The notes under the pieces were generated by a model. The model saw only the letters and a program-made list of their open reading frames with translations, had not been told where the DNA came from and ran no database searches. 64,000 nucleotides of DNA from Owenia fusiformis (Eukaryota > Annelida > Polychaeta > Sabellida > Oweniidae): NCBI GenBank assembly GCA_903813345.2, contig CAIIXF020000011.1, positions 12,879,754 to 12,943,753 on the forward strand, written 5' to 3'. The position numbers and the translations under genes were made by a program. Shown in pieces: positions 11,249 through 56,149 of the stretch (its first letter is position 1; each line of letters begins with the position of its first letter).

Positions 11249-11293
11249 GGGTTTGTGTAAAAAAACGGGTGACCGGGTTTTTTACACAAACCC
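11249..11293. other. Perfect 16-bp stem hairpin
   Basis: GGGTTTGTGTAAAAAA (11,249-11,264) is exactly complementary to TTTTTTACACAAACCC (11,278-11,293), with a 13-base loop containing ACGGGTGACCGGG. No terminator role is expected in a eukaryote. It may be a piece of a palindromic repeat; no function can be assigned. Confidence 0.6.
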
Positions 11294-19082: not shown

Positions 19083-19350
19083 CTGGATGACAGGCGAGCA
19101 TTCTACTACTGAACCACCAGTGCTTTTCATGTTGTAAGTAAAATATAATTCATAAAAATAGTAATTTCTCTTCATATAAGTACATGTATTTAAATAAAAA
19201 ACATCGCACTGACCGGGAATCGACCCATGGCCAGCTGGATAAAAGGCGAGCATTCTTCCACTGAACCATCAGAGCTTTCATGTTGTAAGTGAAGTATAAT
19301 TCATATAAGATGTAGTTTCTCTTCATATCAGTATTCAAATGAAAACTATT

Positions 19351-19420
19351 GCACTGACCAGGAATCGAACCACTGCCAGCTGGATGACAGGTTAGCATTC
19401 TACCACTGAACCATCAGTGC
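19351..19420 (-). tRNA. tRNA-like monomer with consensus B box (array left edge)
   Basis: A 70-nt unit with a perfect 7-bp acceptor stem (GCACTGA/TCAGTGC), a D arm GTTC-AGTGGTA-GAAT, anticodon loop CTGTCAT (GTC) and a T loop in GGTTCGATTCC, which equals the pol III B-box consensus. The anticodon stem (CTAAC/CCAGC) is badly paired, so a stable cloverleaf is doubtful. Most likely a diverged relic of the founding tRNA-Gly-derived unit. Confidence 0.45.
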
Positions 19421-22400
19421 TTTCATGTTGTAAGTAAAGTACAATTCAAAAAAATCGTAATTTCTCTTCATATAAGTATTTAAATGAAAAACATTGCACT
19501 GACCAGGAATGGAACCATGGACAGCTGGATGACAGGCGAGCATTCTACCACTGAACCATCAGTGCTTTCATGTTGTAAGTAAAGTATAATTCATAAAAGA
19601 TGAAGTTTCTCTTCATATCAGTATTTAAATAAAAAACATTGCACTGTACATGAATCGACCCATGGCCAGCTGGATGACAGGTTAGCATTCTACCACTGAA
19701 CCATCAGTGCTTTCATGTTGTCCCTAGAATATAATTCATAAAAATTGTAGTTTCTCTTTATATCAGTATTTAAATGAAAAACATTGCACTGACCAGGAAT
19801 TGATCCATGGCCAACTTGATCACAGGCGAGCATTCTACCACTGAACCATCAGTGCTTTCGTGTTGTAAGCAAAATATAATTCATAAAAATAGTAATTTCT
19901 CTTCATATTAGTATTTAAATGAAAAACATTGCACTGACCAGGAATTGAACCATGGGCAGGTGGATGACAGGCGAGCATTCTACCACTGAACCATCAGTGA
20001 TTTCATGTTGTAAGTAAAATATAATTCATAAAAATAGTAATTTCTCTTCATATAAGTATTTAAATGAAAAACATTGCACTGACCAGGAATCGACCCATAG
20101 TCAGCTGGATGACAGGCGAGCATTCTACCACTGAACCATCAGTGCTTACATGATGTAAGTAAAGTATAATTCATAAAAGATGTAGTTTCTCGTCATATCA
20201 GTATTTAAATGAAAAACATTTCACTGACCAGGAATCGACCCATGGACAGCTGGATGACAGGCGAGCATTGTACTACTGAACCATCAGTGCTTTCATGTCG
20301 ACCCTAAAATATTATTCATTAAAATTGTAATTTCTCTTCATATCAGTATTTAAATGAAAAACATTGCACTGACCAGCAGGAATCGACCCATGTCAAGCTG
20401 GATGAGAGGTGAGCATACTACCACTGAGCCATCAGTGCTTTCATGTTGTAAGTAAAATAAAATTCATAAATATAGTAATATCTCTTCATATCAGTATTTA
20501 AATGAAAAACATTGCACTGACCAGGAATTGAACCATGGAAAGCTGGATGACAGGCGAGCATTCTACCACTGAACCATCAGTGCTTTCATGTTGTAAGCAA
20601 AATATAATTCATAAAAATAGTAATTTCTATTCATATAAGTATTTAAATGAAAAACATTTCACTGACCAGGAATGGAACCATGGACAGCTGGATGACAGGC
20701 GAGCATTCTACCACTGAACCATCAGTGCTTTCATGTTGTCCCTAGAATATAATTCATAAAAATAGTAATTTCTATTCATATCAGTATTTAAATGAAAAAC
20801 ATTGCACTGACCAGGAATGGAACCATGGACAGCTGGATGACAGGCGAGCATTCTACCACTGAACCGTCATGTTGTAGGTAAAATATAATTCATAAAAATT
20901 GTAATTTCTCTTCATATCAGTATTTAAATGGAAAAAAATTGCACTGACCAGGAATCGGCCCATGGCCAGCTGGATGACAGGCGAGCATTCTACCACTGAA
21001 CCATCAGTGCTTTCATGCTGTAAATAAAGTATAATTCATAAAAGATGTAGTTTCTCTTTATATCAGTATTTAAATGAAAAATATTGCACTGACCAGGAAT
21101 TGAACCATGGGCAGCTGGATGATAGCCGAGCATTCTACCACTGAACCATCAGTGATTTCATGTTGTAAGTAAAATATAATTCATAAAAATAGTAATTTCT
21201 CTTCATATAAGTATTTAAATGAAAAACATTGCACTGACCAGGAATCGACCCATAGCCAGCTGGATGACAGGCGAGCATTCTACCACAGAACCATCAGTGA
21301 CTTCATGTTGTAAGTAAAATATAATTCATAAAAAATGTAATTTCTCTTCATATCAGTATTTAAATGAAAAAAATTGCACTGACCAGGAATCGACCCATGC
21401 AAGTTGTAAGTGAAGTATAATTCATAAAAGATGTAATTCTCTTCATATCAGTATTTAAATGAAAAACATTGCACTTACCAGGAATCGAACCACTGCAAGC
21501 TGGATGACAGACGAGCATTCTACCACTGAACCATCAGGAATTTCATGTTCTAAGTAAAATATAATTCATAAAAAATGTAATTTCTCTTCATATCAGTATT
21601 TAAATGGAAAAAATTGCAGTGACCAGGAATCGACCCATGGCCAGCTGGATCACAGGCGAGCATTCTACCACTGAACCATCACTGCTTTCATGTTGTAAAT
21701 GAAATATAATTCATAAAAATAGTAATTTCTCTTCATATCAGTATTAAAATGAAAAACATTGCACTGACCAGGAATTGAACCATGGGCAGCTTGATGACAG
21801 GCGAGCATTCTACCACTGAACCATCAGTGATTTCATGTTGTAAGTAAAATATAATTCATAAAAATGTAATTTCTCTTCATATCAGTATTTAAATGAAAAA
21901 CATTGCACTGACCAGGAATTGAACCATGGGCAGCTGGATGACAGGCGAGCATTCTACCACTGAACCATCAGTGCTTTCATGTTGTATGTAAAATATAATT
22001 CATAAAAATAGTAATTTCTCTTCATATCAGTATTTAAATGAAAAACATTGCACTGACCAGGAATCGACCCATGGCCAGCTGGATGACAGGTTAACACTCT
22101 ACCACTGAACCATCAGTGATTTCATGTTGTAACTAAAATATAATTCATAAAAATAGTAATTTCTCTTCATATCAGTATTTAAATGAAAAACATTGCACTG
22201 ACCAGGAATTGAACCATGGGCAGCTGGATGACAGGCGAGCATTCTACCTCTGAACCATCAGTGATTTCATGTTGTAAATATAATTCATAAAAATAGTAAT
22301 TTCTCTTCATATAAGTATTTAAATGAAAAACATTGCACTGACCAGGAATCGACCCATAGCCAGCTGGATGACAGGCGAGCATTCTACAACAGAACCATCA

Positions 22401-25224
22401 GTGATTTCATGTTGTAAGTAAAATATAATTCATGAAAAATGTAATTTCTCTTCATATCAGTATTTAAATGAAAAAAATTGCACTGACGAGGAATCGACCC
22501 ATGGTCATCTGGATGACAGGCGAGCATTCTACAACTGAACCATCAGTGCTTTCATGTTGTAAGTAAAATATAATTCATTAAAATAGTAATTTCTCTTCAT
22601 ATCAGTATTTAAATGAAAAACATTGCACTGACCAGGAATTGAACCGTGGGCAGCTGGATGACAGGCGAGCATTCTACCCCTGAGCCATCAGTGCTTTCAT
22701 GTTGTAAGTAAAATATAATTAATAAAAATAGTAATTTCTCGTCATATCAGTATTTAAATGAAAAAAATTGCACTGACCAGGAATCGACCCATGGCCAGCT
22801 GGATGACAGGTTAGCATTCTACCACTGAACCATCACTGCTTTCATGTTGTAAATGAAATATAATTCATAAAAATAGTAATTTCTCTTCATATCAGTATTA
22901 AAATGAAAAACATTGCACTGACCAGGAATTGAACCATGGGCAGCTGGATGACAGGCGAGCATTCTACCACTGAACCATCAGTGATTTCATGTTGTAAGTA
23001 AAATATAATTCATTAAAATGTAATTTCTCTTCATATCAGTATCTAAATGAAAAACATTGCACTGACCAGGAAGTGAACCATGGGCAGCTGGATGACAGGC
23101 GAGCATTCTACCACTGAACCATCAGTGCTTTCATGTTGTATGTAAAATATAATTCATAAAAATAGTAATTTCTCTTCATATCAGTATTTAAATGAAAAAC
23201 ATTGCACTGACCAGGAATTGAACCATGGGCAGCTGGATGACAGGCGAGCATTCTACCACTGAACCATCAGTGCTTTCATGTTGTATGTAAAATATAATTC
23301 ATAAAAATAGTAAATTCTCTTCATATCAGTATTTTAATGAAAAACATTGCACTGACCAGGAATTGAACCATGGGCAGCTGGATGACAGGCGAGCATTCTA
23401 CCACTGAACCATCAGTGCTTTCATGTTGTCCCTAGAATATAATTCATAAAAATAGTAATTTCTATTCATATAAGTATTTAAATGAAAAACATTGCACTGA
23501 CCAGGAATTGAACCATGGGCAGCTGGATGACAGGCGAGCATTCTACCACTGAACCATCAGTGCTTTCATGTTGTATGTAAAATATAATTCATAAAAATAG
23601 TAATTTCTCTTCATATCAGTATTTAAATGAAAAACATTGCACTGACCAGGAATTGAACCATGGGCAACTGGATGACAGGCGAGCATTCTACCACTGAACC
23701 ATCAGTGCTTTCATGTTGTCCCTAGAATATAATTCATAAAAATAGTAATTTCTATTCATATCAGTATTTAAATGAAAAACATTGCACTGACCAGGAATCG
23801 ACCCATGGCCAGCTGGTTGACAGGTTAACACTCTACCACTGTACCATCAGTGATTTCATGTTGTAACTAAAATATAATTCATAAAAATAGTAATTTCTCT
23901 TCATATCAGTATTTAAATGAAAAACATTGCACTGACCAGGAATCGACCCATGGCCAGCTGGATGACAGGTTAGCACTCTACCACTGAACCATCAGTGATT
24001 TCATGTTGTAACTAAAATATAATTCATAAAAATAGTAATTTCTATTCATATAAGTATTTAAATGAAAAACATTTCACTGACCAGGAATGGAACCATGGAC
24101 AGCTGGATGACAGGCGAGCATTCTACCACTGAACCATCAGTGCTTTCATGTTGTCCCTAGAATATAATTCATAAAAATAGTAATTTCTATTCATATAAGT
24201 ATTTAAATGAAAAACATTGCACTGACCAGGAATTGAACCATGGGCAGCTGGATGACAGGCGAGCATTCTACCACTGAACCATCAGTGCTTTCATGTTGTA
24301 AGCAAAATTTAATTCATAAAAATAGTAATTTCTCTTCATATCAGTATTTAAATGAAAAACATTGCACTGACCAGGAATCGACCCATGGCCAGCTGGTTGA
24401 CAGGTTAACACTCTACCACTGTACCATCAGTGATTTCATGTTGTAACTAAAATATAATTCATAAAAATAGTAATTTCTCTTCATATCAGTATTTAAATGA
24501 AAAACATTGCACTGACCAGGAATCGACCCATGGCCAGCTGGATGACAGGTTAGCACTCTACCACTGAACCATCAGTGATTTCATGTTGTAACTAAAATAT
24601 AATTCATAAAAATAGTAATTTCTATTCATATAAGTATTTAAATGAAAAACATTTCACTGACCAGGAATGGAACCATGGACAGCTGGATGACAGGCGAGCA
24701 TTCTACCACTGAACCATCAGTGCTTTCATGTTGTAAGCAAAATATAATTCATAAAAATAGTAATTTCTCTTCATATCAGTATTTAAATGAAAAACATTGC
24801 ACTGACCAGGAATCGACCCATGGCCAGCTGGTTGACAGGTTAACACTCTACCACTGTACCATCAGTGATTTCATGTTGTAACTAAAATATAATTCATAAA
24901 AATAGTAATTTCTCTTCATATCAGTATTTAAATGAAAAACATTGCACTGACCAGGAATCGACCCATGGCCAGCTGGATGACAGGTTAGCACTCTACCACT
25001 GAACCATCAGTGATTTCATGTTGTAACTAAAATATAATTCATAAAAATAGTAATTTCTATTCATATAAGTATTTAAATGAAAAACATTTCACTGACCAGG
25101 AATGGAACCATGGACAGCTGGATGACAGGCGAGCATTCTACCACTGAACCATCAGTGCTTTCATGTTGTCCCTAGAATATAATTCATAAAAATAGTAATT
25201 TCTATTCATATAAGTATTTAAATG

Positions 25225-25229
25225 AAAAA
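25225..25229 (-). terminator. Pol III T5 terminator of a representative monomer
   Basis: A run of five T on the minus strand, four bases after the end of the tRNA-like body at 25,234. The same spacing is kept in nearly every monomer of the array. Four or more T is the standard RNA polymerase III stop. Confidence 0.55.
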
Positions 25230-25233
25230 CATT

Positions 25234-25303
25234 GCACTGACCAGGAATTGAACCATGGGCAGCTGGATGACAGGCGAGCATTCTACCACTGAACCATCAG
25301 TGC
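25234..25303 (-). tRNA. Representative core monomer: tRNA-Gly-like body with GUC anticodon
   Basis: The 70-nt body has a perfect 7-bp acceptor stem, box A TGGTTCAGTGG identical to tRNA-Gly, a D stem GTTC/GAAT, anticodon loop CTGTCAT and B box GGTTCAATTCC (one change from consensus). A at the discriminator position follows the acceptor. From box A to the anticodon loop only two bases differ from my recollection of metazoan tRNA-Gly(GCC), one of them turning GCC into GTC. The 3' half is weak: the anticodon 3' strand is CCAGC where GCGGG is expected, and the T stem CATGG/CCTGG has two mismatches. A one-base register shift gives a mostly paired anticodon stem (GCT/AGC plus G-C) with an 8-nt loop. 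A functional tRNA is unlikely; a transcribed tRNA-like RNA is possible. Confidence 0.5.
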
Positions 25304-25318
25304 TTTCATGTTGTAAGC

Positions 25319-25326
25319 AAAATATA
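25319..25326 (-). promoter_or_regulatory. TATA-like element upstream of a tRNA-like body
   Basis: TATATTTT on the minus strand, beginning 23 bases upstream of the body that starts at 25,303. It is conserved across most monomers. Upstream TATA elements assist pol III at some tRNA genes. The surrounding spacer is AT-rich, so this may be coincidence. Confidence 0.35.
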
Positions 25327-26389
25327 ATTCATAAAAATAGTAATTTCTCTTCATATCAGTATTTAAATGAAAAACATTGCCCTGACCAGGAATCGACCCA
25401 TGGCCAGCTGGATGACAGGTTAGCATTCTACCACTGAACCATCAGTAATTTCATGTTGTAACTAAAATATAATTCATAAAAATAGTAATTTCTATTCATA
25501 TAAGTATTTAAATGAAAAACATTTCACTGACCAGGAATGGAACCATGGACAGCTGGATGACAGGCGGGCATTCTACTACTGAACCATCAGTGCTTTCATG
25601 TTGTAAGCAAAATTAATTCATAAAAATAGTAATTTCTCTTCATATCAGTATTTAAATGAATAACATTGCACTGACCAGGAATCGACCCATGGCCAGCTGG
25701 TTGACAGGTTAACACTCTACCACTGTACCATCAGTGATTTCATGTTGTAACTAAAATATAATTCATAAAAATAGTAATTTCTCTTCATATCAGTATTTAA
25801 ATGAAAAACATTGCACTGACCAGGAATCGACCCATGGCCAGCTGGATGACAGGTTAGCACTCTACCACTGAACCATCAGTGATTTCATGTTGTAACTAAA
25901 ATATAATTCATAAAAATAGTAATTTCTATTCATATAAGTATTTAAATGAAAAACATTGCACTGACCAGGAATGGAACCATGGACAGCTGGATGACAGGCG
26001 AGCATTCTACCACTGAACCATCAGTGCTTTCATGTTGTAACTAAAATATAATTCATAAAAATAGTAATTTCTATTCATATAAGTATTTAAATGAAAAACA
26101 TTTCACTGACCAGGAATGGAACCATGGACAGCTGGATGACAGGCGAGCATTCTACCACTGAACCATCAGTGCTTTCATGTTGTAACTAAAATATAATTCA
26201 TAAAAATAGTAATTTCTATTCATATAAGTATTTAAATGAAAAACATTTCACTGACCAGGAATGGAACCATGGACAGCTGGATGACAGGCGAGCATTCTAC
26301 CACTGAACCATCAGTGCTTTCATGTTGTCCCTAGAATATAATTCATAAAAATAGTAATTTCTATTCATATCAGTATTAAAATGAAAAAC

Positions 26390-29300
26390 ATTGCACTGAC
26401 CAGGAATTGAACCATGGACAGCTGGATGACAGGCGAGCATTCTACCACTGAACCATCAGTGCTTTCATGTTGTCCCTAGAATATAATTCATAAAAATAGT
26501 AATTTCTCTTCATATCAGTATTAAAATGAAAAACATTGCACTGACCAGGAATTGAACCATGGTCAGCTGGATGACAGGCGAGCATTCTACCACTGAACCA
26601 TCAGTGCTTTCATGTTGTCCCTAGAATATAATTTATAAAAATAGTAATTTCTATTCATATAAGTATTTAAATGAAAAACATTGCACTGACCAGGAATTGA
26701 ACCATGGGCAGCTGGATGACAGGCGAGCATTCTACCACTGAACCATCAGTGCTTTCATGTTGTAAGCAAAATATAATTCATAAAAATAGTAATTTCTCTT
26801 CATATCAGTATTTAAATGAAAAACATTGCACTGACCAGGAATCGACCCATGGCCAGCTGGTTGACAGGTTAACACTCTACCACTGTACCATCAGTGATTT
26901 CATGTTGTAACTAAAATATAATTCATAAAAATAGTAATTTCTCTTCATATCAGTATTTAAATGAAAAACATTGCACTGACCAGGAATCGACCCATGGCCA
27001 GCTGGATGACAGGTTAGCACTCTACCACTGAACCATCAGTGATTTCATGTTGTAACTAAAATATAATTCATAAAAATAGTAATTTCTCTTCATATCAGTA
27101 TTTAAATGAAAAACATTGCACTGACCAGGAATCGACCCATGGCCAGCTGGATGACAGGTTAGCACTCTACCACTGAACCATCAGTGCTTTCATGTTGTAA
27201 CTAAAATATAATTCATAAAAATAGTAATTTCTATTCATATAAGTATTTAAATGAAAAACATTTCACTGACCAGGAATTGAACCATGGGCAGCTGGATGAC
27301 AGGCGAGCATTCTACAACTGAACCATCAGTGCTTTCATGTTGTAAGCAAAATATAATTCATAAAAATAGTAATTTCTATTCATATAAGTATTTAAATGAA
27401 AAACATTTCACTGACCAGGAATGGAACCATGGGCAGCTGGATGACAGGCGAGCATTTTACCACTGAACCATCAGTGCTTTCATGTTGTAAGCAAAATATA
27501 ATTCATAAAAATAGTAATTTCTCTTCATATCAGTATTTAAATGAAAAACATTGCACTGACCAGGAATCGACCCATGGCCAGCTGGTTGACAGGTTATCAC
27601 TCTACCACTGCACCATCAGTGATTTCATGTTGTAACTAAAATATAATTCATAAAAATAGTAATTTCTCTTCATATCAGTATCTAAATGAAAAACATTGCA
27701 CTGACCAGGAATCGACCCATGGCCAGCTGGATGACAGGTTAGCACTCTACCACTGAACCATCAGTGATTTCATGTTGTAACTAAAATATAATTCATAAAA
27801 ATAGTAATTTCTATTCATATAAGTATTTAAATGAAAAACATTGCACTGACCAGGAATTGAATCATGGGCAGCTGGATGACAGGCGAGCATTTTACCACTG
27901 CACCATCAGTGCTTTCATGTTGTAAGCAAAATATAATTCATAAAAATAGTAATTTCTCTTCATATCAGTATTAAAATGAAAAACATTGCACTGACCAGGA
28001 ATCGACCCATGGCCAGCTGGTTGACAGGTTAACACTCTACCACTGTACCATCAGTGATTTCATGTTGTAACTAAAATATAATTCATAAAAATAGTAATTT
28101 CTCTTCATATCAGTATTCAAATGAAAAACATTGCACTGACCAGGAATCGACCCATGGCCAGCTGGATGACAGGTTAGCACTCTACCACTGAACCATCAGT
28201 GATTTCATGTTGTAACTAAAATATAATTCATAAAAATAGTAATTTCTATTCATATAAGTATTTAAATGAAAAACATTTCACTGACCAGGAATGGAACCAT
28301 GGACAGCTGGATGACAGGCGAGCATTCTACCACTGAACCATCAGTGCTTTCATGTTGTCCCTAGAATATAATTCATAAAAATAGTAATTTCTATTCATAT
28401 AAGTATTTAAATGAAAAACATTGCACTGACCAGGAATTGAACCATGGGCAGCTGGATGACAGGCGAGCATTCTACCACTGAACCATCAGTGCTTTCATGT
28501 TGTAAGCAAAATATAATTCATAAAAATAGTAATTTCTCTTCATATCAGTATTTAAATGAAAAACATTGCACTGACCAGGAATCGACCCATGGCCAGCTGG
28601 TTGACAGGTTAACACTCTACCACTGTACCATCAGTGATTTCATGTTGTAACTAAAATATAATTCATAAAAATAGTAATTTCTCTTCATATAAGTATTTAA
28701 ATGAAAAACATTTCACTGACCAGGAATGGAACCATGGACAGCTGGATGACAGGCGAGCATTCTACCACTGAACCATCAGTGCTTTCATGTTGTCCCTAGA
28801 ATATAATTCATAAAAATAGTAATTTCTATTCATATAAGTATTTAAATGAAAAACATTGCACTGACCAGGAATGGAACCATGGACAGCTGGATGACAGGCG
28901 AGCATTCTACCTCTGAACCATCAGTGCTTTCATGTTGTCCCTAGAATATAATTCATAAAAATAGTAATTTCTATTCATATCAGTATTTAAATGAAAAACA
29001 TTGCACTGACCAGGAATGGAACCATGGACAGCTGGATGACAGGCGAGCATTCTACCACTGAACCATCAGTGCTTTCATGTTGTCCCTAGAATATAATTCA
29101 TAAAAATAGTAATTTCTATTCATATAAGTATTTAAATGAAAAACATTGCACTTACCAGGAATTGAACCATGGGCAGCTGGATGACAGGCGAGCATTCTAC
29201 CACTGAACCATCAGTGCTTTCATTTTGTAAGCAAAATATAATTCATAAAAATAGTAATTTCTCTTCATATCAGTATTTAAATGAAAAACATTGCACTGAC

Positions 29301-32300
29301 CAGGAATCGACCCATGGCCAGCTGGTTGACAGGTTAACACTCAACCACTGTACCATCAGTGATTTCATGTTGTAACTAAAATATAATTCATAAAAATAGT
29401 AATTTCTCTTCATATCAGTATTTAAATGAAAAACATTGCACTGACCAGGAATCGACCCATGGCCAGCTGGATGACAGGTTAGCACTCTACCACTGAACCA
29501 TCAGTGATTTCATGTTGTAACTAAAATATAATTCATAAAAATAGTAATTTCTATTCATATAAGTATTTAAATGAAAAACATTTCACTGACCAGGAATGGA
29601 ACCATGGACAGCTGGATGACAGGCGAGCATTCTACCACTGAACCATCAGTGCTTTCATGTTGTCCCTAGAATATAATTCATAAAAATAGTAATTTCTATT
29701 CATATAAGTATTTAAATGAAAAACATTGCACTGACCAGGAATCGACCCATGGCCAGCTGGATGACAGGTTAGCACTCTACCACTGAACCATCAGTGCTTT
29801 CATGTTGTAACTAAAATATAATTCATAAAAATAGTAATTTCTATTCATAAAAGTATTTAAATGAAAAACATTGCACTGACCAGGAATGGAACCATGGACA
29901 GCTGGATGGCAGGCGAGCATTCTACCACTGAACCATCAGTGCTTTCATGTTGTCCCTAGAATATAATTCATAAAAATAGTAATTTCTATTCATATAAGTA
30001 TTTAAATGAAAAACATTGCACTGACCAGGAATTGAACCATGGACAGCTGGATGACAGGCGAGCATTCTACCACTGAACCATCAGTGCGTTCATGTTGTAA
30101 GCAAAATATAATTCATAAAAATAGTAATTTCTATTCATATAAGTATTTAAATGAAAAACATTTCACTGACCAGGAATGGAACCATGGACAGCTGGATGAC
30201 AGGCGAGCATTCTACCACTGAACCATCAGTGCTTTCATGTTGTCCCTAGAATATAATTCATAAAAATAGTAATTTCTATTCATATAAGTATTTAAATGAA
30301 AAACATTGCACTGACCAGGAATTGAACCATGGGCAGCTGGATGACAGGCGAGCATTCTACCACTGAACCATCAGTGCTTTCATGTTGTAAGCAAAATATA
30401 ATTCATAAAAATAGTAATTTCTCTTCATATCAGTATTTAAATGAAAAACATTGCACTGACCAGGAATCGACCCATGGCCAGCTGGTTGACAGGTTAACAC
30501 TCTACCACTGTACCATCAGTGATTTCATGTTGTAACTAAAATATAATTCATAAAAATAGTAATTTCTATTCATATAAGTATTTAAATGAAAAACATTGCA
30601 CTGACCAGGAATGGAACCATGGACAGCTGGATGACAGGCGAGCATTCTACCACTGAACCATCAGTGCTTTCATGTTGTAAGCAAAATATAATTCATAAAA
30701 ATAGTAATTTCTATTCATATAAGTATTTAAATGAAAAACATTTCAGTGACCAGGAATGGAACCATGGACAGCTGGATGACAGGCGAGCATTCTACCACTG
30801 AACCATCAGTGCTTTCATGTTGTCCCTAGAATATAATTCATAAAAATAGTAATTTCTATTCATATAAGTATTTAAATGAAAAACATTGCACTGACCAGGA
30901 ATCGACCCATGGCCAGCTGGTTGACATGTTAACACTCTACCACTGTACCATCAGTGTTTTCATGTTGTAACTAAAATATAATTCATAAAAATAGTAATTT
31001 CTCTTCATATCAGTATTTAAATGAAAAACATTGCACTGACCAGGAATCGACCCATGGGCAGCTGGATGACAGGTTAGCACTCTACCACTGAATCATCAGT
31101 GATTTCATGTTGTAACTAAAATATAATTCATAAAAATAGTAATTTCTATTCATATAAGTATTTAAATGAAAAACATTTCACTGACCAGGAATGGAACCAT
31201 GGACAGCTGGATGACAGGCGAGCATTCTACCACTGAACCATCAGTGCTTTCATGTTGTCCCTAGAATATAATTCATAAAAATAGTAATTTCTATTCATAT
31301 AAGTATTTAAATGAAAAACATTGCACTGACCAGGAATTGAACCATGGGCAGCTGGATGACAGGCGAGCATTCTACCACTGAACCATCAGTGCTTTCATGT
31401 TGTTAGCAAAATATAATTCATAAAAATAGTAATTTCTCTTCAAATCAGTATTTAAATGAAAAACATTGCACTGACCAGGAATCGACCCATGGCCAGCTGG
31501 TTGACAGGTTAACACTCTACCACTGTACCATCAGTGATTTCATGTTGTAACTAAAATATAATTCATAAAAATAGTAATTTCTCTTCATATCAGTATTTAA
31601 ATGAAAAACATTGCACTGACCAGGAATCGACCCATGGCCAGCTGGATGACAGGTTAGCACTCTACCACTGAACCATCAGTGATTTCATGTTGTAACTAAA
31701 ATATAATTCATAAAAATAGTAATTTCTATTCATATAAGTATTTAAATGAAAAACATTTCACTGACCAGGAATGGAACCATGGACAGCTGGATGACAGGGG
31801 AGCATTCTACCACTGAACCATCAGTGCTTTCATGTTGTAAGCAAAATATAATTCATAAAAATAGTAATTTCTCTTCATATCAGTATTTAAATGAAAAACA
31901 TTGCACTGACCAGGAATCGACCCATGGCCAGCTGGTTGACAGGTTAACACTCTACCACTGTACCATCAGTGATTTCATGTTGTAACTAAAATATAATTCA
32001 TAAAAATAGTAATTTCTCTTCATATCAGTATTTAAATGAAAAACATTGCACTGACCAGGAATCGACCCATGGCCAGCTGGATGACAGGTTAGCACTCTAC
32101 CACTGAACCATCAGTGATTTCATGTTGTAACTAAAATATAATTCATAAAAATAGTAATTTCTATTCATATAAGTATTTAAATGAAAAACATTTCACTGAC
32201 CAGGAATGGAACCATGGACAGCTGGATGACAGGCGAGCATTCTACCACTGAACCATCAGTGCTTTCATGTTGTAAGCAAAATATAATTCATAAAAATAGT

Positions 32301-33120
32301 AATTTCTATTCATATAAGTATTTAAATGAAAAACATTTCACTGACCAGGAATTGAACCATGGACAGCTGGATGACAGGCGAGCATTCTACCACTGAACCA
32401 TCAGTGCTTTCATGTTGTAAGCAAAATATAATTCATAAAAATAGTAATTTCTCTTCATATCAGTATTTAAATGAAAAACATTGCACTGACCAGGAATGGA
32501 ACCATGGACAGCTGGATGACAGGCGAGCATTCTACCACTGAACCATCAGTGCTTTCATGTTGTCCCTAGAATATAATTCATAAAAATAGTAATTTCTATT
32601 CATATAAGTATTTAAATGAAAAACATTGCACTGACCAGGAATTGAACCATGGGCAGCTGGATGACAGGTTAGCACTCTACCACTGAACCATCAGTGATTT
32701 CATGTTGTAACTAAAATATAATTCCTAAAAATAGTAATTTCTATTCATATAAGTATTTAAATGAAAAACATTTCACTGACCAGGAATGGAACCATGGACA
32801 GCTGGATGACAGGCGAGCATTCTACCACTGAACCATCAGTGCTTTCATGTTGTCCCTAGAATATAATTCATAAAAATAGTAATTTCTATTCATATAAGTA
32901 TTTAAATGAAAAACATTGCACTGACCAGGAATTGAACCATGGGCAGCTGGATGACAGGCGAGCATTCTACCACTGAACCATCAGTGCTTTCATGTTGTAA
33001 GCAAAATATAATTCATAAAGATAGTAATTTCTCTTCATATCAGTATTCAAATGAAAAACATTGCACTGACCAGGAATGGAACCATGGACAGCTGGTTGAC
33101 AGGTTAACACTCTACCACTG
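26390..33120. repeat. Higher-order block 1 within the satellite
   Basis: Private variants in this block recur in order in 33,340-40,520: ATTTATAAAA (26,632 and 33,590), CTACAACTG (27,313 and 34,272), GGATGGCAGG (29,904 and 37,301), TTGACATGTTAAC (30,921 and 38,463) and ATTCATAAAG (33,011 and 40,408). The offset moves from 6,959 to 7,397, then 7,542 and back to 7,397. These steps are about three monomers and one monomer. Confidence 0.8.
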
Positions 33121-33339
33121 AACCATCAGTGCTTTCATGTTGTCCCTAGAATATAATTCATAAAAATAGTAATTTCTATTCATATAAGTATTTAAATGAA
33201 AAACATTTCACTGACCAGGAATGGAACCATGGCCAGCTGGATGACAGGCGAGCATTCTACCACTGAACCATCAGTGCTTTCATGTTGTAACTAAAATATA
33301 ATTCATAAAAATAGTAATTTCTATTCATATCAGTATTAA

Positions 33340-36300: not shown

Positions 36301-39300
36301 ATTCTACCACTGAACCATCAGTGCTTTCATGTTGTCCCTAGAATATAATTCATAAAAATAGTAATTTCTATTCATATCAGTATTTAAATGAAAAACATTG
36401 CACTGACCAGGAATGGAACCATGGACAGCTGGATGACAGGCGAGCATTCTACCACTGAACCATCAGTGCTTTCATGTTGTCCCTAGAATATAATTCATAA
36501 AAATAGTAATTTCTATTCATATAAGTATTTAAATGAAAAACATTGCACTGACCAGGAATTGAACCATGGGCAGCTGGATGACAGGCGAGCATTCTACCAC
36601 TGAACCATCAGTGCTTTCATGTTGTAAGCAAAATATAATTCATAAAAATAGTAATTTCTCTTCATATCAGTATTTAAATGAAAAACATTGCACTGACCAG
36701 GAATCGACCCATGGCCAGCTGGTTGACAGGTTAACACTCTACCACTGTACCATCAGTGATTTCATGTTGTAACTAAAATATAATTCATAAAAATAGTAAT
36801 TTCTCTTCATATCAGTATTTAAATGAAAAACATTGCACTGACCAGGAATCGACCCATGGCCAGCTGGATGACAGGTTAGCACTCTACCACTGAACCATCA
36901 GTGATTTCATGTTGTAACTAAAATATAATTCATAAAAATAGTAATTTCTATTCATATAAGTATTTAAATGAAAAACATTTCACTGACCAGTAATGGAACC
37001 ATGGACAGCTGGATGACAGGCGAGCATTCTAACACTGAACCATCAGTGCTTTCATGTTGTCCCTAGAATATAATTCATAAAAATAGTAATTTCTATTCAT
37101 ATAAGTATTTAAATGAAAAACATTGCACTGACCAGGAATCGACCCATGGCCAGCTGGATGAGAGGTTAGCACTCTACCACTGAACCATCAGTGCTTTCAT
37201 GTTGTAACTAAAATATAATTCATAAAAATAGTAATTTCTATTCATATAAGTATTTAAATGAAAAACATTGCACTGACCAGGAATGGAACCATGGACAGCT
37301 GGATGGCAGGCGAGCATTCTACCACTGAACCATCAGTGCTTTCATGTTGTCCCTAGAATATAATTCATAAAAATAGTAATTTCTATTCATATAAGTATTT
37401 AAATGAAAAACATTGCACTGACCAGGAATTGAACCATGGACAGCTGGATGACAGGCGAGCATTCTACCACTGAACCATCAGTGCTTTCATGTTGTAAGCA
37501 AAATATAATTCATAAAAATAGTAATTTCTATTCATATAAGTATTTAAATGAAAAACATTTCACTGACCAGGAATGGAACCATGGACAGCTGGATGACAGG
37601 CGAGCATTCTACCACTGAACCATCAGTGCTTTCATGTTGTCCCTAGAATATAATTCATAAAAATAGTAATTTCTATTCATATAAGTATTTAAATGAAAAA
37701 CATTGCACTGACCAGGAATTGAACCATGGGCAGCTGGATGACAGGCGAGCATTCTACCACTGAACCATCAGTGCTTTCATGTTGTAAGCAAAATATAATT
37801 CATAAAAATAGTAATTTCTCTTCATATCAGTATTTAAATGAAAAACATTGCACTGACCAGGAATCGACCCATGGCCAGCTGGTTGACAGGTTAACACTCT
37901 ACCACTGTACCATCAGTGATTTCATGTTGTAAATAAAATATAATTCATAAAAATAGTAATTTCTCTTCATATCAGTATTTAAATGAAAAACATTGCACTG
38001 ACCAGGAATCGACCCATGGCCAGCTGGTTGACAGGTTAGCACTCTACCACTGAACCATCAGTGATTTCATGTTGTAACTAAAATATAATTCATAAAAATA
38101 GTAATTTCTATTCATATAAGTATTTAAATGAAAAACATTTCACTGACCAGGAATGGAACCATGGACAGCTGGATGACAGGCGAGCATTCTACCACTGAAC
38201 CATCAGTGCTTTCATGTTGTAAGCAAAATATAATTCATAAAAATAGTAATTTCTATTCATATAAGTATTTAAATGAAAAACATTTCACTGACCAGGAATG
38301 GAACCATGGACAGCTGGATGACAGGCGAGCATTCTACCACTGAACCATCAGTGCTTTCATGTTGTCCCTAGAATATAATTCATAGAAATAGTAATTTCTA
38401 TTCATATAAGTATTTAAATGAAAAACATTGCACTGACCAGGAATCGACCCATGGCCAGCTGGTTGACATGTTAACACTCTACCACTGTACCATCAGTGTT
38501 TTCATGTTGTAACTAAAATATTATTCATAAAAATAGTAATTTCTCTTCATATCAGTATTTAAATGAAAAACATTGCACTGACCAGGAATCGACCCATGGG
38601 CAGCTGGATGACAGGTTAGCACTCTACCACTGAACCATCAGTGATTTCATGTTGTAACTAAAATATAATTCCTAAAAATAGTAATTTCTATTCATATAAG
38701 TATTTAAATGAAAAACATTTCACTGACCAGGAATGGAACCATGGACAGCTGGATGACAGGCGAGCATTCTACCACTGAACCATCAGTGCTTTCATGTTGT
38801 CCCTAGAATATAATTCATAAAAATAGTAATTTCTATTCATATAAGTATTTAAATGAAAAACATTGCACTGACCAGGAATTGAACCATGGGCAGCTGGATG
38901 ACAGGCGAGCATTCTACCACTGAACCATCAGTGCTTTCATGTTGTAAGCAAAATATAATTCATAAAAATAGTAATTTCTCTTCATATCAGTATTTAAATG
39001 AAAAACATTGCACTGACCAGGAATCGACCCATGGCCAGCTGGTTGACAGGTTAACACTCTACCACTGTACCATCAGTGATTTCATGTTGTAACTAAAATA
39101 TAATTCATAAAAATAGTAATTTCTCTTCATATCAGTATTTAAATGAAAAACATTGCACTGACCAGGAATCGACCCATGGCCAGCTGGATGACAGGTTAGC
39201 ATTCTACCACTGAACCATCAGTGATTTCATGTTGTAACTAAAATATAATTCATAAAAATAGTAATTTCTATTCATATAAGTATTTAAATGAAAAACATTT

Positions 39301-40520
39301 CACTGACCAGGAATGGAACCATGGACAGCTGGATGACAGGCGAGCATTCTACCACTGAACCATCAGTGCTTTCATGTTGTAAGCAAAATATAATTCATAA
39401 AAATAGTAATTTCTCTTCATATCAGTATTTAAATGAAAAACATTGCACTGACCAGGACTCGACCCATGGCCAGCTGGTTGACAGGTTAACACTCTACCAC
39501 TGTACCATCAGTGATTTCATGTTGTAACTAAAATATAATTCATAAAAATAGTAATTTCTATTCATATAAGTATTTAAATGAAAAACATTGCACTGACCAG
39601 GAATTGAACCATGGACAGCTGGATGACAGGCGAGCATTCTACCACTGAACCATCAGTGCTTTCATGTTGTAAGCAAAATATAATTCATAAAAATAGTAAT
39701 TTCTCTTCATATCAGTATTTAAATGAAAAACATTGCACTGACCAGGACTCGACCCATGGCCAGCTGGTTGACAGGTTAACACTCTACCACTGTACCATCA
39801 GTGATTTCATGTTGTAACTAAAATATAATTCATAAAAATAGTAATTTCTCTTCATATCAGTATTTAAATGAAAAACATTGCACAGACCAGGAATCGACCC
39901 ATGGCCAGCTGGTTGACAGGTTAACACTCTACCACTGTACCATCAGTGATTTCATGTTGTAACTAAAATATAATTCATAAAAATAGTAATTTCTCTTCAT
40001 ATCAGTATTTAAATGAAAAACATTGCACTGACCAGGAATCGACCCATGGCCAGCTGGTTGACAGGTTAGCACTCTACCACTGAACCATCAGTGATTTCAT
40101 GTTGTAACTAAAATATAATTCATATAAATAGTAATTTCTATTCATATAAGTATTTAAATGAAAAACATTTCACTGACCAGGAATGGAACCATGGACAGCT
40201 GGATGACAGGCGAGCATTCTACCACTGAACCATCAGTGCTTTCATGTTGTCCCTAGAATATAATTCGTAAAAATAGTAATTTCTATTCATATAAGTATTT
40301 AAATGAAAAACATTGCACTGACCAGGAATTGAACCATGGGCAGCTGGATGACAGGCGAGCATTCTACCACTGAACCATCAGTGCTTTCATGTTGTAAGCA
40401 AAATATAATTCATAAAGATAGTAATTTCTCTTCATATCAGTATTCAAATGAAAAACATTGCACTGACCAAGAATGGAACCATAGACAGCTGGTTGACAGG
40501 TTAACACTCTACCACTGAAC
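33340..40520. repeat. Higher-order block 2 within the satellite
   Basis: Duplicate of block 1 (26,390-33,120), recognised by shared private variants in the same order. It differs by gain or loss of whole monomers, as expected when long blocks are copied by unequal crossing-over and then edited in monomer-sized steps. Confidence 0.8.
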
Positions 40521-43500
40521 CATCAGTGCTTTCATGTTGTCCCTAGAATATAATTCATAAAAATAGTAATTTCTATTCATATAAGTATTTAAATGAAAAA
40601 CATTTCACTGACCAGGAATTGAACCATGGACAGCTGGATGACAGGCGAGCATTCTATCACTGAACCATCAGTGCTTTCATGTTGTAAGCAAAATATAATT
40701 CATAAAAATAGTAATTTCTCTTCATATCAGTATTTAAATGAAAAACATTGCACTGACCAGGAATGGAACCATGGACAGCTGGATGACAGGCGAGCATTCT
40801 ACTACTGAACCATCAGTGCTTTCATGTTGTCCCTAGAATATAATTCATAAAAATAGTAATTTCTATTCATATAAGTATTTAAATGAAAAACATTTCACTG
40901 ACCAGGAATTGAACCATGGGCAGCTGGATGACAGGCGAGCATTCTACCACTGAACCATCAGTGCTTTCATGTTGTAAGCAAAATATAATTCATAAAAATA
41001 GTAATTTCTCTTCATATCAGTATTTAAATGAAAAACATTGCACTGACCAGGAATCGACCCATGGCCAGCTGGTTGACAGGTTAACACTCTACCACTGTAC
41101 CATCAGTGATTTCATGTTGTAACTAAAATATAATTCATAAAAATAGTAATTTCTCTTCATATCAGTATTTAAATGAAAAACATTGCACTGACCAGGAATC
41201 GACCCATGGCCAGCTGGATGACAGGCGAGCATTCTACCACTGAACCATCAGTGCTTACATGTTGTCCCTAGAATATAATTCATAAAAATAGTAATTTCTA
41301 TTCATATAAGTATTTAAATGAAAAACATTGCACTGACCAGGAATCGACCCATGGCCAGATGGATGACATGTTAGCACTCTACCACTGAACCATCAGTGAT
41401 TTCATGTTGTAACTAAAATATAATTCATAAAAATAGTAATTTCTATTCATATAAGTATTTAAATGAAAAACATTTCACTGACCAGGAATGGAACCATGGA
41501 CAGCTGGATGACAGGCGAGCATTCTACAACTGAACCATCAGTGCTTTCATGTTGTAAGTAAAATATAATTCATAAAAATAGTAATTTCTCTTCATATCAG
41601 TATTTAAATGAAAAACATTGCACTGACCAGGAATCGACCCATGGCCAGCTGGTTGACAGGTTAGCACTCTACCACTGAACCATCAGTGATTTCATGTTGT
41701 ATCTAAAATATAATTCATAAAAATAGTAATTTCTATTCATATAAGTATTTAAATGAAAAACATTTCACTGACCAGGAATGGAACCATGGACAGCTGGATG
41801 ACAGGCGAGCATTCTACAACTGAACCATCAGTGCTTTCATGTTGTAAGTAAAATATAATTCATAAAAATAGTAATTTCTCTTCATATCAGTATTTAAATG
41901 AAAAACATTGAACTGACCAGGAATCGACCCATGGCCAGCTGGTTGACAGGTTAACACTCTACCACTGTACCATCAGTGATTTCATGTTGTAACTAAAATA
42001 TAATTCATAAAAATAGTAATTTCTCTTCATATAAGTATTTAAATGAAAAACATTTCACTGACCAGGAATGGAACCATGGACAGCTGGATGACAGGCGAGC
42101 ATTCTACCACTGAACCATCAGTGCTTTCATGTTGTCCCTAGAATATAATTCATAAAAATAGTAATTTCTATTCATATAAGTATTTAAATAAAAAACATTG
42201 CACTGCCCAGGGATTGAACCATGGGCAGCTGGATGACAGGCGAGCATTCTACCACTGAACCATCAGTGCTTTCATGTTGTAAGCAAAATATAATTCATAA
42301 AAATAGTAATTTCTCTTCATATCAGTATTTAAATGAAAAACTTTGCACTGACCAGGAATCGACCCATGGCCAGCTGGTTGACAGGTTAACACTCTACCAC
42401 TGTACCATCAGTGATTTCATGTTGTAACTAAAATATAATTCATAAAAATAGTAATTTCTCTTCATATCAGTATTTAAATGAAAAACATTGCACTGACCAG
42501 GAATCGACCCATGGCCAGCTGGATGACATGTTAGCACTCTACCACTGAACCATCAGTGATTTCATGTTGTAACTAAAATATAATTCATAAAAATAGTAAT
42601 TTCTATTCATATAAGTATTTAAATGAAAAACATTTCACTGACCAGGAATGGAACCATGGACAGCTGGATGACAGGGGAGCATACTACAACTGAACCATCA
42701 GTGCTTTCATGTTGTAAGTAAAATTTAATTCATAAAAATAGTAATTTCTCTTCATATCAGTATTTAAATGAAAAACATTGCACTGACCAGGAATCGACCC
42801 ATGGCCAGCTGGTTGACAGGTTAGCACTCTACCACTGTACCATCAGTGATTTCATGTTGTCCCTAGAATATAATTCATAAAAATAGTAATTTCTATTCAT
42901 ATAAGTATTTAAATGAAAAACATTGCACTGACCAGGAATTGAACCATTGGCAGCTGGATGACAGGCGAGCATTCTACCACTGAACCATCAGTGCTTTCAT
43001 GTTGTAAGCAAAATATAATTCGTAAAAATTGTAATTTCTCTTCATATCAGTATTTAAATGAAAAACATTGCACTGACCAGGAATCGACCCATGGCCAGCT
43101 GGTTGACAGGTTAACACTCTACCACTGTACCATCAGTGATTTCATGTTGTAACTAAAATATAATTCATAAAAATAGTAATTTCTCTTCATATCAGTATTT
43201 AAATGAAAAACATTGCACTGACCAGCAGGAATCGACCCATGGCCAGCTGGATGACAGGTGAGCATTCTACCACTGAGCCATCAGTGCTTACATGTTGTAA
43301 GTAAAGTATAATTCATAAAGGATGTAGTTTCTCTTCATATAAGTATTTAAATGAAAAACATTGCACTGACCAGGAATTGAACCATGGGCAGCTGGATGAC
43401 AGGCGAGCATTCTACCACTGAACCATCAGTGATCTCATGTTGTAAGGAAAATATAATTCATAAAAATAGTAATTTCTCTTCATATAAGTATTTAAATGAA

Positions 43501-46500
43501 AAACATTGCAATGACCAGGAATCGACCCATAGCCAGTTGGATGACAGGCGAGAATTCTACCACTGAACCATCAGTGCTTTCATGTTATAAGTAAAGTATA
43601 ATTCATAAAAATTGTAGTTTCTCTTTATATCAGATTTAAATGAAAAACATTGCACTGACCAGGTATTGAACCATGGCCAACTGGATGACAGGGGAGCATT
43701 CTACCACTGAACCATCAGTGCTTTCATGTTGTAGGTAAAGTATAATTCATAAAAGATGTAGTTTCTCTTCATATAAGTATTTAAATGAAAAACATTGCAC
43801 TGACCAGGAATCGACCCATGGCCAGCTGGATGACAGGCGAGCATTCTACCACTGAACCATCAATGAGTTCATGTTATAAGTAAAATATAATTCATTAAAA
43901 ATGTAATTTCTCTTCATATCAGTATTTAAATGAAAAACATTGCACTGACCAGGAATTCAACCATGGGCAGCTGGATGACAGGCAAGCATTCTACCACTGA
44001 ACCATCAGTGCTTTCATGTTGTAAGCAAAATATAATTCATAAAAGAGTAATTTCTCTTCATATCAGTATTTAAATGAAAAACATTGCACTGACCAGGAAT
44101 CGACCCATGGCCAGGTGGATGACAGGTTAGCATTCTACCACTGAACCATCAGAACTTTCATGTTGTAAGTAAAATATAATTCATAAAAATAGTAATATCT
44201 ATTCATATAAGTATTTAAATGAAAAACATTGCACTGACCAGGAATCGACCCATAGCCAGCTGGATGACAGGCGAGCATTCTACAAATGAACCATCAGTGC
44301 TTTCATGTTGTAAGTAAAGTATAATTCATAAAAGATGTAGTTTCTCTTCATATAAGTATTAAAATAAAAAACATTGCACTGACCAGGAATTGAACCATGG
44401 GCAGCTGGATGACAGGCGAGCATTCTACCACTGAACCATAAGTGATTTCATGTAGTAAGTAAAATATAATTCATAAAAATAGTAATTTCTCTTCATATCA
44501 GTATTTCAATGAAAAAAATTGCACTGACCAGGAATCGACCCATGGCCAGCTGGATGACAGGCGAGCATTCTACCACTGAACCATCAGTGCTTACATGATG
44601 TAAGTAAAGTATAATTCATAAAGGATGTAGTTTCTCTTCATATCAGTATTTAAATGAAAAACATTGCACTGACCAGGAATCGACCCATGGCCAGCTGGAT
44701 GACAGGCGAGCATTGTACTACTGAACCATCAGTACTTTCATGTCGACCCTAAAATATTATTCATAAAAATTGTAATTTCTCTTCATATCAGTATTTAAAT
44801 GAAAAACATTGCACTGACCAGCAGGAATCGACCCATGGCCAGCTGGATGACAGGTGAGCATTCTACCACTGAGCCATCAGTGCTTTCATGTTGTAAGTAA
44901 AATATAATTCATAAAAATAGTAATTTCTCTTCATATCAGTATTTAAATGAAAAACATTACACTGACCAGGAATTGAACCAGGGACAGCTGGATGACAGGC
45001 GAGCATTCTACCACTGAACCATCAGTGATTTCATGTTGTAAGTAAAATATAATTCATAAAAATTGTAATTTCTCTTCATGAAAGTATTTAAATGAAAAAA
45101 ATTGCACTGACCAGGTATTGAACCATGGGCAGCTGGTCGACAGGCGAGCATTCTACCACTGAACCATCAGTGATTTCATGTTGTAAGAAAAATATAATTC
45201 ATAAAAATAGTAATTTCTATTTATATAAGTATTTAAATGAAAAACATTGCACTGACCAGGAATCGACCCATAGCCAGCTGGATGACAGGCGAGCATTCTA
45301 CCAGTGAACCATCAGTGCTAACATGATGTAATTAAAGTATAATTCATAAAAGATGTAGCTTCTCTTCATATCAGTATTTAAATGAAAAACATTGCACTGA
45401 CCAGGAATCGACCCATAGCCAGCTGGATGACAGGCGTGCATTCTACCACTGAACCATCAGTGCTTTCATGTTGTAAGTAAAGTATAATTCATAAAAGATG
45501 TAGTTTCTCTTCATATAAGTATTTAAATGGAAAAAAATTCACTGACCAGGGATTGAACCATGGGCAGTTGGATGACAGGCGAGCATTCTACCACTGAACC
45601 ATCAGTGATTTCTTGTTGTTAGTAAAATATAATTCGTAAAAATAATAATTTCTCTTCATATCAGTATTTAAATGGAAAAAATTGCACTGACCAGGAATTG
45701 ACCCATGGCCAGCTGGATGACAGGCGAGCATTCTACCACTGAACCATCACTGCTTTCATGTTTTAAATGAAATATAATTCATAAAAATAGTTATTTCTCT
45801 TCATATCAGTCTTTAAATGAAAAACATTGCACTGACCAGGAATTGAACCATGGGCAGCTGGATGACAGGCGAGCATTCTACCACTGAACCATCAATGATT
45901 TCATGTTGTAAGTAAAATATAATTCATAAAAATAGTAATTTCTCTTCATATCAGTATTTAAATGAAAAACATTGCACTGACCAGGAATTGAACCACTGCC
46001 AGCTGGATGACAGGCGAGCATTCTACCACTGAACTATCAGTGCTTTCATGTTGTATGTAAAATATAATTCATAAAAATAGTAATTTCTCTTCATATCAGT
46101 ATTTAAATGAAAAACATTGCACTGACCAGGAATCGACCCATGGCCAGCTAGATGACAGGTTAGCACTCTACCACTGAACCACCAGTGCTTTCATGTTGTA
46201 AGTAAAGTATAATTCATAAAAGATGTAGTTTCTCTTCATATAAGTATTTAAATGAAAAACATAGCACTGACCAGGAGTTGAACCATGGGCAGCTGGATGA
46301 CAGGCGAGCATTCTACCTCTGAACCATCAGTGATTTCATGTTGTAAGTAAAATATAATTCATAAAAAATGTAATTTCTCTTCATATCAGTATTTAAATGA
46401 AAAACATTGCACTGACCAGGAATCGACAAATGGCCAGCTGGATGACAGGCGAGCATTCTACAACTGAACCATCAGTGCTTTCATGTTGTAAGTAAAATAC

Positions 46501-47855
46501 AATTCATAAAAATAGTAATTTCTCTTCATATCAGTATTTAAATGAAAAACATTGCACTGACCAGGAATTGAACTATGGGCAGCTGGATGACAGGCGAGCA
46601 TTCTACCACTGAACCATCAGTGCTTTCATGTTGTAAGTAAAATATAATTCATAAAAATAGTAATTTCTCTTCATATCAGTATTTAAATGATAAACATTGC
46701 ACTGACCAGGAATCGACCCATGGCCAGCTGGATGACAGGTTAGCATTCTACCACTGAACCATCAGTGCTTTCATGTTGTAAGTAAAATATAATTCATTAA
46801 AAATGTAATTTCTCTTCATATCAGTATTTAAATGAAAAACATTGCACTGACAGGGATTGACCCATAGCCAGCTGGATGACAGGCGAGCATTCTACCACTG
46901 AACCATCAGTGCTTACATGTTGTAATTAAAGTATAATTCATAAAAGATGTAGTTTCTCTTCATATCAGAATTTAAATGAAAAACATTGCACTGACCAGGA
47001 ATCGACCCATGGCCAGCTGGATGACAGGCGAGCATTCTACCACTGAACCATTAGTGCTTTCATGTCGTCCCTAAAATATAATTCATAAAAATTTTAATTT
47101 CTCTTCATATCAGTATTTAAATGAAAAACATTACACTGACCAGGAATTGAACCATGGGCAACTGGATGACAGGCGAGCAATCTACCACTGAACCACCGGT
47201 GTTTTCATGTTGTAAGTAAAATATAATTCATAAAAAATGAAATTTCTCTTCATATCAGTATTTAAATGAAAAAATTGTACTGACCAGGAATCGACCCATC
47301 GCCATCCGGATGATAGGAGAGCATTCTACCACTGAACCATCAGTGCTTTCATGTCGTCACTAAAACATTATTCAAAAAAATTGTAATTTCTCTTCATATC
47401 AGTATTTAAATGAAAAACATTGCACTGGCCAGGAATTGAACCATGTACAACTGGATGACAGGCGAGCATTCTACCACTGAACCATTATTGATTTCATGTT
47501 GTAAGTGAAATATAATTCATAAAAAATGTAATTTCTCTTTATATCAATATTTAAATGAAAAAAATGCACTGACCAGGAATCGACCCATGGCCGGCTGGAT
47601 GGCAGGCGAGCATTCTACCACTAAACCATCAGTGCTTTCATGATGTAGGGGAAGTATAATTAAAAAAAGATGTAGTTTCTCTTCATATGAGTATTTAAAT
47701 GAAAAACATTGCACTGACCAGGAATCGACCCATGGCCAGCTGGATGACAGCCGTGCATTCTACCAATGAACCATCAGTGCTTCCATGTTGTAACTGAAGT
47801 ATAATTCATTAAAGATGTTGTTTCTTTTCATATTAGTATTTAAATGAAAATGATT

Positions 47856-47925
47856 GCACTGACCAGGAATCGAACCACTGCCAGCTGGATGACAGGTTAG
47901 CATTCTACCACTGAACCATCAGTGC
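47856..47925 (-). tRNA. tRNA-like monomer with consensus B box (array right edge)
   Basis: A 70-nt body with intact 7-bp acceptor stem, box A TGGTTCAGTGG and B box GGTTCGATTCC. The normal T5 run is disrupted here (ATCATTTTC), leaving T4. The anticodon is GTC, again with a poorly paired anticodon stem. It shares the CAGTGG T-stem wording with the left-edge unit at 19,351, so this is probably the ancestral form. Confidence 0.45.
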
Positions 47926-48000
47926 TTCCATGTTGTAAGTAAAGTATAATTCATAAAAATAGTAATTTCTCTTCATATAAGTATTTAAATGAAAAACATT

Positions 48001-48070
48001 GCACTGACCAGGAATCGAACCACTGCCAGTTTGATGACAGGTTAGCATTCTACCACTGAACCATCAGTGC
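48001..48070 (-). tRNA. tRNA-like monomer with consensus B box (array right edge, second)
   Basis: The next unit to the right of 47,856, with the same acceptor stem, box A, GTC anticodon loop and consensus GGTTCGATTCC. It has T5 just downstream. The anticodon 3' strand is altered (CAAAC in place of CCAGC). Beyond it the array decays and ends near 48,335. Confidence 0.45.
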
Positions 48071-48335
48071 TTCCATGTTGTAAGTAAAGTACAATTCATA
48101 AAAATAGTAATTTCTCTTCATATAAGTATTTAAATGAAAAACATTGCACTGACCAGGATTGGAACCATGGCCAACTGGATGACTTGCGATTGTTATCTAT
48201 CTTCATATCCGTTTTTAACTGACCAGGAGACGACCCATGGCCAGCATTGTGATGGCGAGCATTCTACCACTGAACCACAAATGCTTTCATTTCAACACTA
48301 AAGTAAAATTCATAAAAATTGTAATTTATCTTCAG

Positions 48336-56148: not shown

Positions 56149-56149
56149 T

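Follow-up and report, generated by a model that had tools for sequence, protein, structure and literature searches.

A 145-bp tRNA-like satellite array in Owenia fusiformis and its probable origin in a tandem tRNA-Gly(GCC) gene cluster

About 200 head-to-tail copies of a 145-bp monomer in the genome of the annelid Owenia fusiformis are, very probably, satellite DNA to which unequal exchange and decay in a tandem tRNA-Gly(GCC) gene cluster gave rise. Judged by sequence homology, the satellite shares its ancestry with a tandem array of such genes, and the tRNA layout that can be traced in each monomer is best read as inherited from that ancestry rather than as the sign of a working new RNA. Most of the copies are probably untranscribed, or transcribed only incidentally. 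An earlier reading, made from the sequence alone, had left two alternatives: a large tRNA-derived satellite, or a gene cluster encoding a new tRNA-like RNA with a maintained layout. Homology to a gene unit on contig C7 over both gene and spacer, together with the alignment and a tree of units, bears out the first; body and spacer that vary alike, within the power of the test, lend the second no support. The origin of satellite monomers is usually unknown; with tandem tRNA genes, recurring defective units inside gene arrays and several graded families of decayed units all in one assembly, each step on the way from genes to satellite can be traced here.

Results

The array in the window

The window, a stretch of 64,000 nucleotides, is part of contig C11 in the searched assembly (498.26 Mb, 525 contigs). 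TRF reports a period of 145 at 19082-21399 (16.0 copies) and at 21403-48183 (184.7 copies), and nhmmer, applied to the minus strand alone, returns 203 monomer matches from 19082 to 48202; their chain is interrupted three times by more than 3 bases. Beyond 48202 a further degenerate unit is legible, by direct reading of the sequence, to about 48335. The extent and copy number given by the sequence-only reading are thus confirmed (Table 1).

Identity within blocks of 20 monomers is 0.93-0.94 in the core and 0.89-0.90 at both edges (mean 0.898 in the first block). Runs of as many as 12 monomers are duplicated within the core, and in the four longest the copies lie 48-52 monomers apart; one array-private variant occurs 23 times genome-wide, always within 23807-43120 of the window. 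The gradient from core to edge, the recurring runs and the private variant are what unequal exchange and local copying should leave behind, and a homogenised core with diverged edges accounts for the tRNA register that runs through the array. Both hallmarks of satellite DNA are found: long arrays of one monomer evolving in concert, and occurrence at several chromosomal sites. In the terminal unit of the right edge, the spacer stretch TGTAATTTATCTTCA (plus strand) resembles that of a 147-bp family located at 11.86 Mb of C11.

Table 1. Features of the satellite array, in window coordinates.
Feature	Position	Strand	Evidence
Array of ~200 head-to-tail copies of the 145-bp satellite, very probably tRNA-Gly-derived	19082..48335	- (tRNA-like strand)	TRF, nhmmer, direct reading
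Left flank of array, diverged, 16 copies	19082..21399	-	TRF; within-block identity
Homogenised core of array	22304..42600	-	within-block identity 0.928-0.939; near-identical runs; array-private variant
Best-scoring tRNA-like body in window	23638..23708	-	Rfam 45.1 bits, against up to 66.7 for this genome's tRNA-Gly genes
Right flank of array, diverged, last unit decayed	42604..48335	-	within-block identity 0.903, 0.890; sequence
Terminal decayed unit, right edge	48203..48335	-	direct reading against consensus alignment

Anatomy of the monomer

Searches for tRNA structure, of the kind suggested with the sequence-only reading, gave a divided answer. The Rfam tRNA model, applied to both strands, produces 107 matches above the gathering score, all of them in the array and on the minus strand (best 45.1 bits), whereas ARAGORN makes no tRNA call across the window. 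The likeness to tRNA exceeds chance because of homology to real genes.

Anatomical counts are based on 199 near-complete copies, the four of the 203 monomers with more than 15 gap columns having been left out. Three elements of the proposed layout are nearly universal, as claimed: discriminator A is present in 197 and T5 in 190 of the 199 copies, and the box A consensus TRGYNNANNNG in 192 of 198. The claim that every monomer carries the full layout does not hold. A perfect 7-bp acceptor stem, said to be a constant feature, is found in 75 of 199 copies. Its first pair, 1:70, is unpaired in 111 of 198, being T-C in 68 and G-A in 40 of the 199; the compensated T-A occurs in two copies against 15 expected under independence, so that the two kinds of break lie mostly on different sub-lineages. 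Of the B box, the parental form GGTTCGATTCC is left in only 4 of 199 copies, the prevailing forms being GGGTCGATTCC (82), GGTTCAATTCC (48) and GGTTCCATTCC (45). Canonical box B (GWTCRANNC) occurs in 58 of 198 window copies, compared with 10 of 12 and 15 of 17 units in two tRNA-Gly gene arrays described below. Box A, box B, T4 and a 7/7 acceptor stem are found jointly in 36 of 198 window copies, versus 10 of 12 and 14 of 17 gene units.

The five pairs of the anticodon stem, in tRNA-Gly register, are formed in 2, 122, 2, 194 and 0 of the 199 copies, and the full stem in none; the anticodon positions read GTC in at least 183. In the alignment of the best copy the T arm requires a bulge, and the typed consensus body gains no folding advantage over its shuffled versions (z -0.84, matched by 33 of 200). 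Window copies therefore do not combine the paired acceptor, anticodon and T stems and the anticodon GCC of a functional tRNA-Gly gene, and the canonical boxes A and B with terminator that mark a functional pol III gene are not present in each copy.

The TATA-like stretch noted upstream is real in so far as 135 of 199 copies contain TATAWWW, but the motif also turns up in 29% of mononucleotide shuffles made from the upstream consensus, and it is absent from both gene-array consensuses. On these grounds an inherited upstream TATA or pol III element was rejected; the stretch is AT-rich spacer.

Tandem tRNA-Gly(GCC) gene arrays

Genes were located by searching with a typed tRNA-Gly(GCC) sequence and with an exact 32-base core; the core has 21 matches, 11 on C2, three on C6 and seven on C7. 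Many of the genes belong to two tandem arrays, on C2 near 29.32 Mb (period ~150 bp; 18 ARAGORN tRNA-Gly calls) and on C7 near 34.70 Mb (period ~147 bp; 11 calls), with Rfam scores of up to 66.7 bits. Among the 18 units of the C7 array are defective ones of two deletion types, each occurring three times. Higher-order repeats of 607 and 715 bp with recurring defective units are visible in the gene arrays (L011, L012): this is gene death in progress within a tandem array.

Each of the five satellite spacers compared with the C7 spacer proves homologous to it (z 6.4-8.0, equalled by 0 of 500 shuffles), and remains so once 10 nt are trimmed at both ends (z 3.3-8.1, equalled by 0-2 of 500). The monomer is thus homologous to the C7 array unit across gene and spacer. 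tRNA-Gly genes outside tandem arrays (C6, C2 at 4.5 Mb, C7 at 12.5 Mb) match the C7 unit over ~80 bp, that is, the gene only. The spacer of the C2 genes bears a weak likeness to that of C7 (z 3.6; trimmed 2.1) and no detectable relation to that of the window (z 1.5; trimmed -0.4), and descent is therefore tied to the C7 lineage only.

Degenerate arrays and their families

Searches with the window unit, a C4 unit and the C7 gene unit as queries revealed further degenerate arrays on C1, C4 and C492, on C11 (8.28, 9.90-10.08, 11.86, 12.90, 13.39, 13.51 and 15.28-15.30 Mb) and on C2 (9.98-10.01, 11.28 and 14.09 Mb). From 20 array pieces (two gene, 18 degenerate) we cut 614 units and aligned the piece consensuses. 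The degenerate arrays were assigned to four families: S1 (C4, C1 and C492; 19 units), S2 (C11 at 8.28 Mb, C2 at 11.28 and 14.09 Mb), S3 (C11 at 11.86 Mb; 147 bp) and S4, the 145-bp family to which the window array belongs, found on C2 and at several sites along C11. A 28-base S4 motif has 520 exact matches in the assembly, 144 of them in the window, and the first 100 of the 520 in the match list all lie on C2 and C11. The placement of these 100 argues against a general centromere role; a general centromere satellite was considered and finds no support in them.

A midpoint-rooted tree of 104 units drawn at random from the 614 (149 columns; bootstrap unsettled and many forks unresolved) separates the genes from all degenerate units (100/96). 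It recovers S1 (99/96) and S2 (99/99) and places S4 in one group (96/76); S4 is joined at 100/94 by two units of the C11 11.86-Mb locus, which fall just outside it. S3 as labelled is not one group, because that locus is mixed.

At the 11.86-Mb locus (L014:1671-9000, L015:1-2834) several satellite sub-families adjoin, and the locus is a possible birthplace of the 145-bp form. ARAGORN accepts eight units there, of which one is called tRNA-Gly(GCC) and seven have a different anticodon or one that could not be read; it accepts seven more in other 145-bp arrays (L016-L020; the scan left out L031-L040). The degenerate copies are not all equally dead. In the C4 family (L031, L027) a two-base shift of register lets the anticodon arm, as read by eye, pair 5/5 (CGCCT-TGCATGC-AGGCG); this may be a chance product of the TGCATGC palindrome.

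Decay of CpG sites

Of the seven CpGs in the gene body, the two gene arrays each retain 0.89 and S4, S3 and S2 between 0.15 and 0.24, and in the window consensus five are gone. Among C/G sites of the window, those in former CpGs are changed at a rate of 0.59 and the rest at 0.17. Hypervariable body positions include 28, 29 and 55, which are former CpG sites, and 1, 23, 45 and 52, which are not. This is the pattern to be expected of DNA that is unconstrained and, we infer, probably methylated (S1 was left out of this analysis and of the within-family tests below).

Variation in the tRNA-like body and the spacer

For comparisons of body and spacer a length filter kept 435 of 436 units of the 145-bp family and 66 of 74 of S2; such copies are not independent, and copy-level tests are therefore approximate. 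Of the C7 gene-array units it kept 12 of 15, those removed being defective, so that the data overstate the health of that array. These tests and the family consensuses do not include the mixed piece C11_11.86a (34 units).

Within the window, minor alleles have a mean frequency of 0.064 for body positions versus 0.041 for spacer positions (p=0.24); a second alignment gives 0.063 and 0.051 (p=0.49), and the 435 copies of nine S4 arrays give 0.065 and 0.069 (p=0.66). Body and spacer are alike in S2 (p=0.80), and in S3 the body is the more variable (p=0.0004). The four families differ from one another at 23 of 69 columns in the body and at 26 of 72 in the spacer (p=0.86). The window body carries more rare variants than the spacer (p=0.011), and boxes A and B of S4 together hold more of them, not fewer (p=0.014; p=0.54 excluding the window). 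Equal substitution in body and spacer, which the sequence-only reading had named, together with an absence of RNA reads, as the mark of plain satellite DNA, is thus what we see within the limits of power. The body is not slower than the spacer among satellites, and within the same limits selection on it was rejected. In the control arrays the body is the quieter part, at 0.014 versus 0.049 on C7 (p=0.11) and 0.022 versus 0.047 on C2 (p=0.06); the direction is right but the difference non-significant, which shows the limited power of the test on small arrays.

Comparison of genes with satellites gives fewer differences in the body than in the spacer for S4 (12/71 v 26/74), S1 (8/69 v 19/74), S2 (11/71 v 20/72) and S3 (17/71 v 22/74). 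Constraint on the gene branch alone would yield this result, which is therefore not decisive.

These data bear on the possibility that the array is a gene cluster for a novel tRNA-like RNA whose function maintains the layout, with pol III reading each monomer from its internal boxes A and B to the T5 stop. The near-universal box A, discriminator A and T5 of the window copies are in keeping with it, as are a box A that is nearly invariant across families and the few units of other degenerate arrays that pass ARAGORN. Nevertheless, at no level tested is the body slower than the spacer among satellites, the excess of variants in the S3 and window bodies runs the other way, canonical box B is found in none of 19 S3 and none of 66 S2 copies, and the consensus body folds as shuffles do. 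Position 55, the most variable site of the window monomer, which lies in box B, and a first acceptor pair that is broken in two ways and hardly ever compensated also speak against a maintained pol III layout. We consider such a gene cluster very unlikely.

Two elements hint against a wholly neutral reading. Box A differs between the four families at one of 12 columns and the spacer at 26 of 72 (p=0.09); in the 145-bp family the T run has a mean minor frequency of 0.024 versus 0.069 for the spacer (no formal test). For boxes A and B together, four of 23 columns differ (p=0.12).

A role at the level of DNA is another reading: an array of inert origin might, through retained boxes A and B that bind TFIIIC or part of it, serve as a boundary, a fork barrier or a clustering site and make no RNA. 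tRNA genes and TFIIIC sites act in such roles in yeasts and animals, and box A is kept in 402 of the 435 copies of the 145-bp family. Box B, however, is the main TFIIIC contact, and it is worse kept (161 of 435 canonical) and not clearly slower (between families it differs at three of 11 columns; within the 145-bp family its mean minor frequency is 0.10). We regard this role, too, as highly improbable. There is a slim chance that pol III still reads, or TFIIIC still binds, some of the decayed tRNA-Gly satellites, and that box A and the T run are held in this way. If so, the array would be a large, fast-evolving pool of pol III units making tRNA-like small RNA, on C11 and C2, or alternatively a chromatin boundary on these contigs.

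Origin of the satellite

Least credible of all is a tRNA-derived SINE turned tandem, in which the head of a retroposon rather than a gene cluster was amplified: such SINEs are common, and a dispersed family with a tRNA-like part exists in this genome (eight of nine chosen loci), but that family lacks the satellite's spacer and tail, whereas the satellite spacer aligns to that of a tandem array of intact genes, with a unit length of 145-150 bp common to both. No dispersed single 145-bp unit was noticed among the matches listed. The dispersed family (L021-L026, L028, L030) has its tRNA-like stretch ~60 bp inside a common 5' flank (TCACTTCCGAATCATAGC..); parentage by this family was rejected, its spacer and tail being unrelated.

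Growth from a tRNA-Gly(GCC) gene cluster, the explanation we favor, would have proceeded as follows. Unequal exchange in a tandem gene array would have amplified defective units until no working gene remained; the anticodon and T arms would have fallen to C-to-T decay at probably methylated CpGs and to the loss of constraint. Further unequal exchange and segmental copying may later have carried the 145-bp form to C2 and to several places on C11, and may also have homogenised the core of each array. The register of body, discriminator A and T5 would then have been inherited and copied along, not selected.

Other features of the window

Outside the array, the window contains a tandem duplication of ~6.3 kb (~1-12600), with minor repeats recurring 6,297 bp apart. 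Two frames of 540 aa, at 176-1798 and 6473-8095, have identical translations, the first of which matches glycosyltransferase family 92. A large palindromic element at 53121-56290 has 348-bp tandem repeats in both orientations, arms of up to 472 nt that are 99% complementary, and flanks formed by inverted arrays of a 62-bp repeat; it looks like a mobile element with repeat-built ends. On either side of it, at 51110-51963 and 56654-57668, lie 45-82-bp repeats that by eye appear related (CATTGGAAGCTGA.. and CATAGACATA..). Stretches of a 19-bp minisatellite occupy 62345-64000, which is GC-richer than the remaining window and has several frames open.

Discussion

Relation to known systems

The 107 satellite units that the Rfam tRNA model scores above threshold are a warning for annotation. 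tRNA-derived SINEs have a tRNA-like 5' part with boxes A and B, are dispersed and carry a tail; the monomer has the same tRNA-like part, but here the copies are in tandem and the spacer is common with a gene array.

For the passage of a tRNA gene array into a satellite, the open-licence literature searched offered partial parallels only. Titles in the reference list of PMC12692304 tell of satellites derived from 5S rDNA in Hoplias malabaricus, Physalaemus cuvieri and a B chromosome of Plantago lagopus. To judge by these titles, a tandem pol III gene family has there become satellite DNA, as it very probably has here; the differences are that the probable parent here is a tRNA-Gly gene array, with a monomer of ~145 bp, and that gene arrays and several graded stages of decay coexist in one assembly. 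Passages of PMC11955569 describe satellites of Harttia catfish with parts related to tRNA genes or to tRNA-derived satellites; as depicted there, these are complex mosaics with SINE or LINE parts, whereas the present monomer consists of one gene unit, its spacer and a T run.

The proposed parent state also has its counterparts. Tandem tRNA gene arrays in Entamoeba (PMC2652664) and tandem tRNA duplications in plants (PMC12652284) place tRNA genes head to tail, like the arrays on C7 and C2. There they are described as tRNA genes, while the window array is without a single gene that ARAGORN accepts. The kind of satellite reported here is known in outline; what distinguishes this genome is that gene arrays and several stages of their decay stand together within it.
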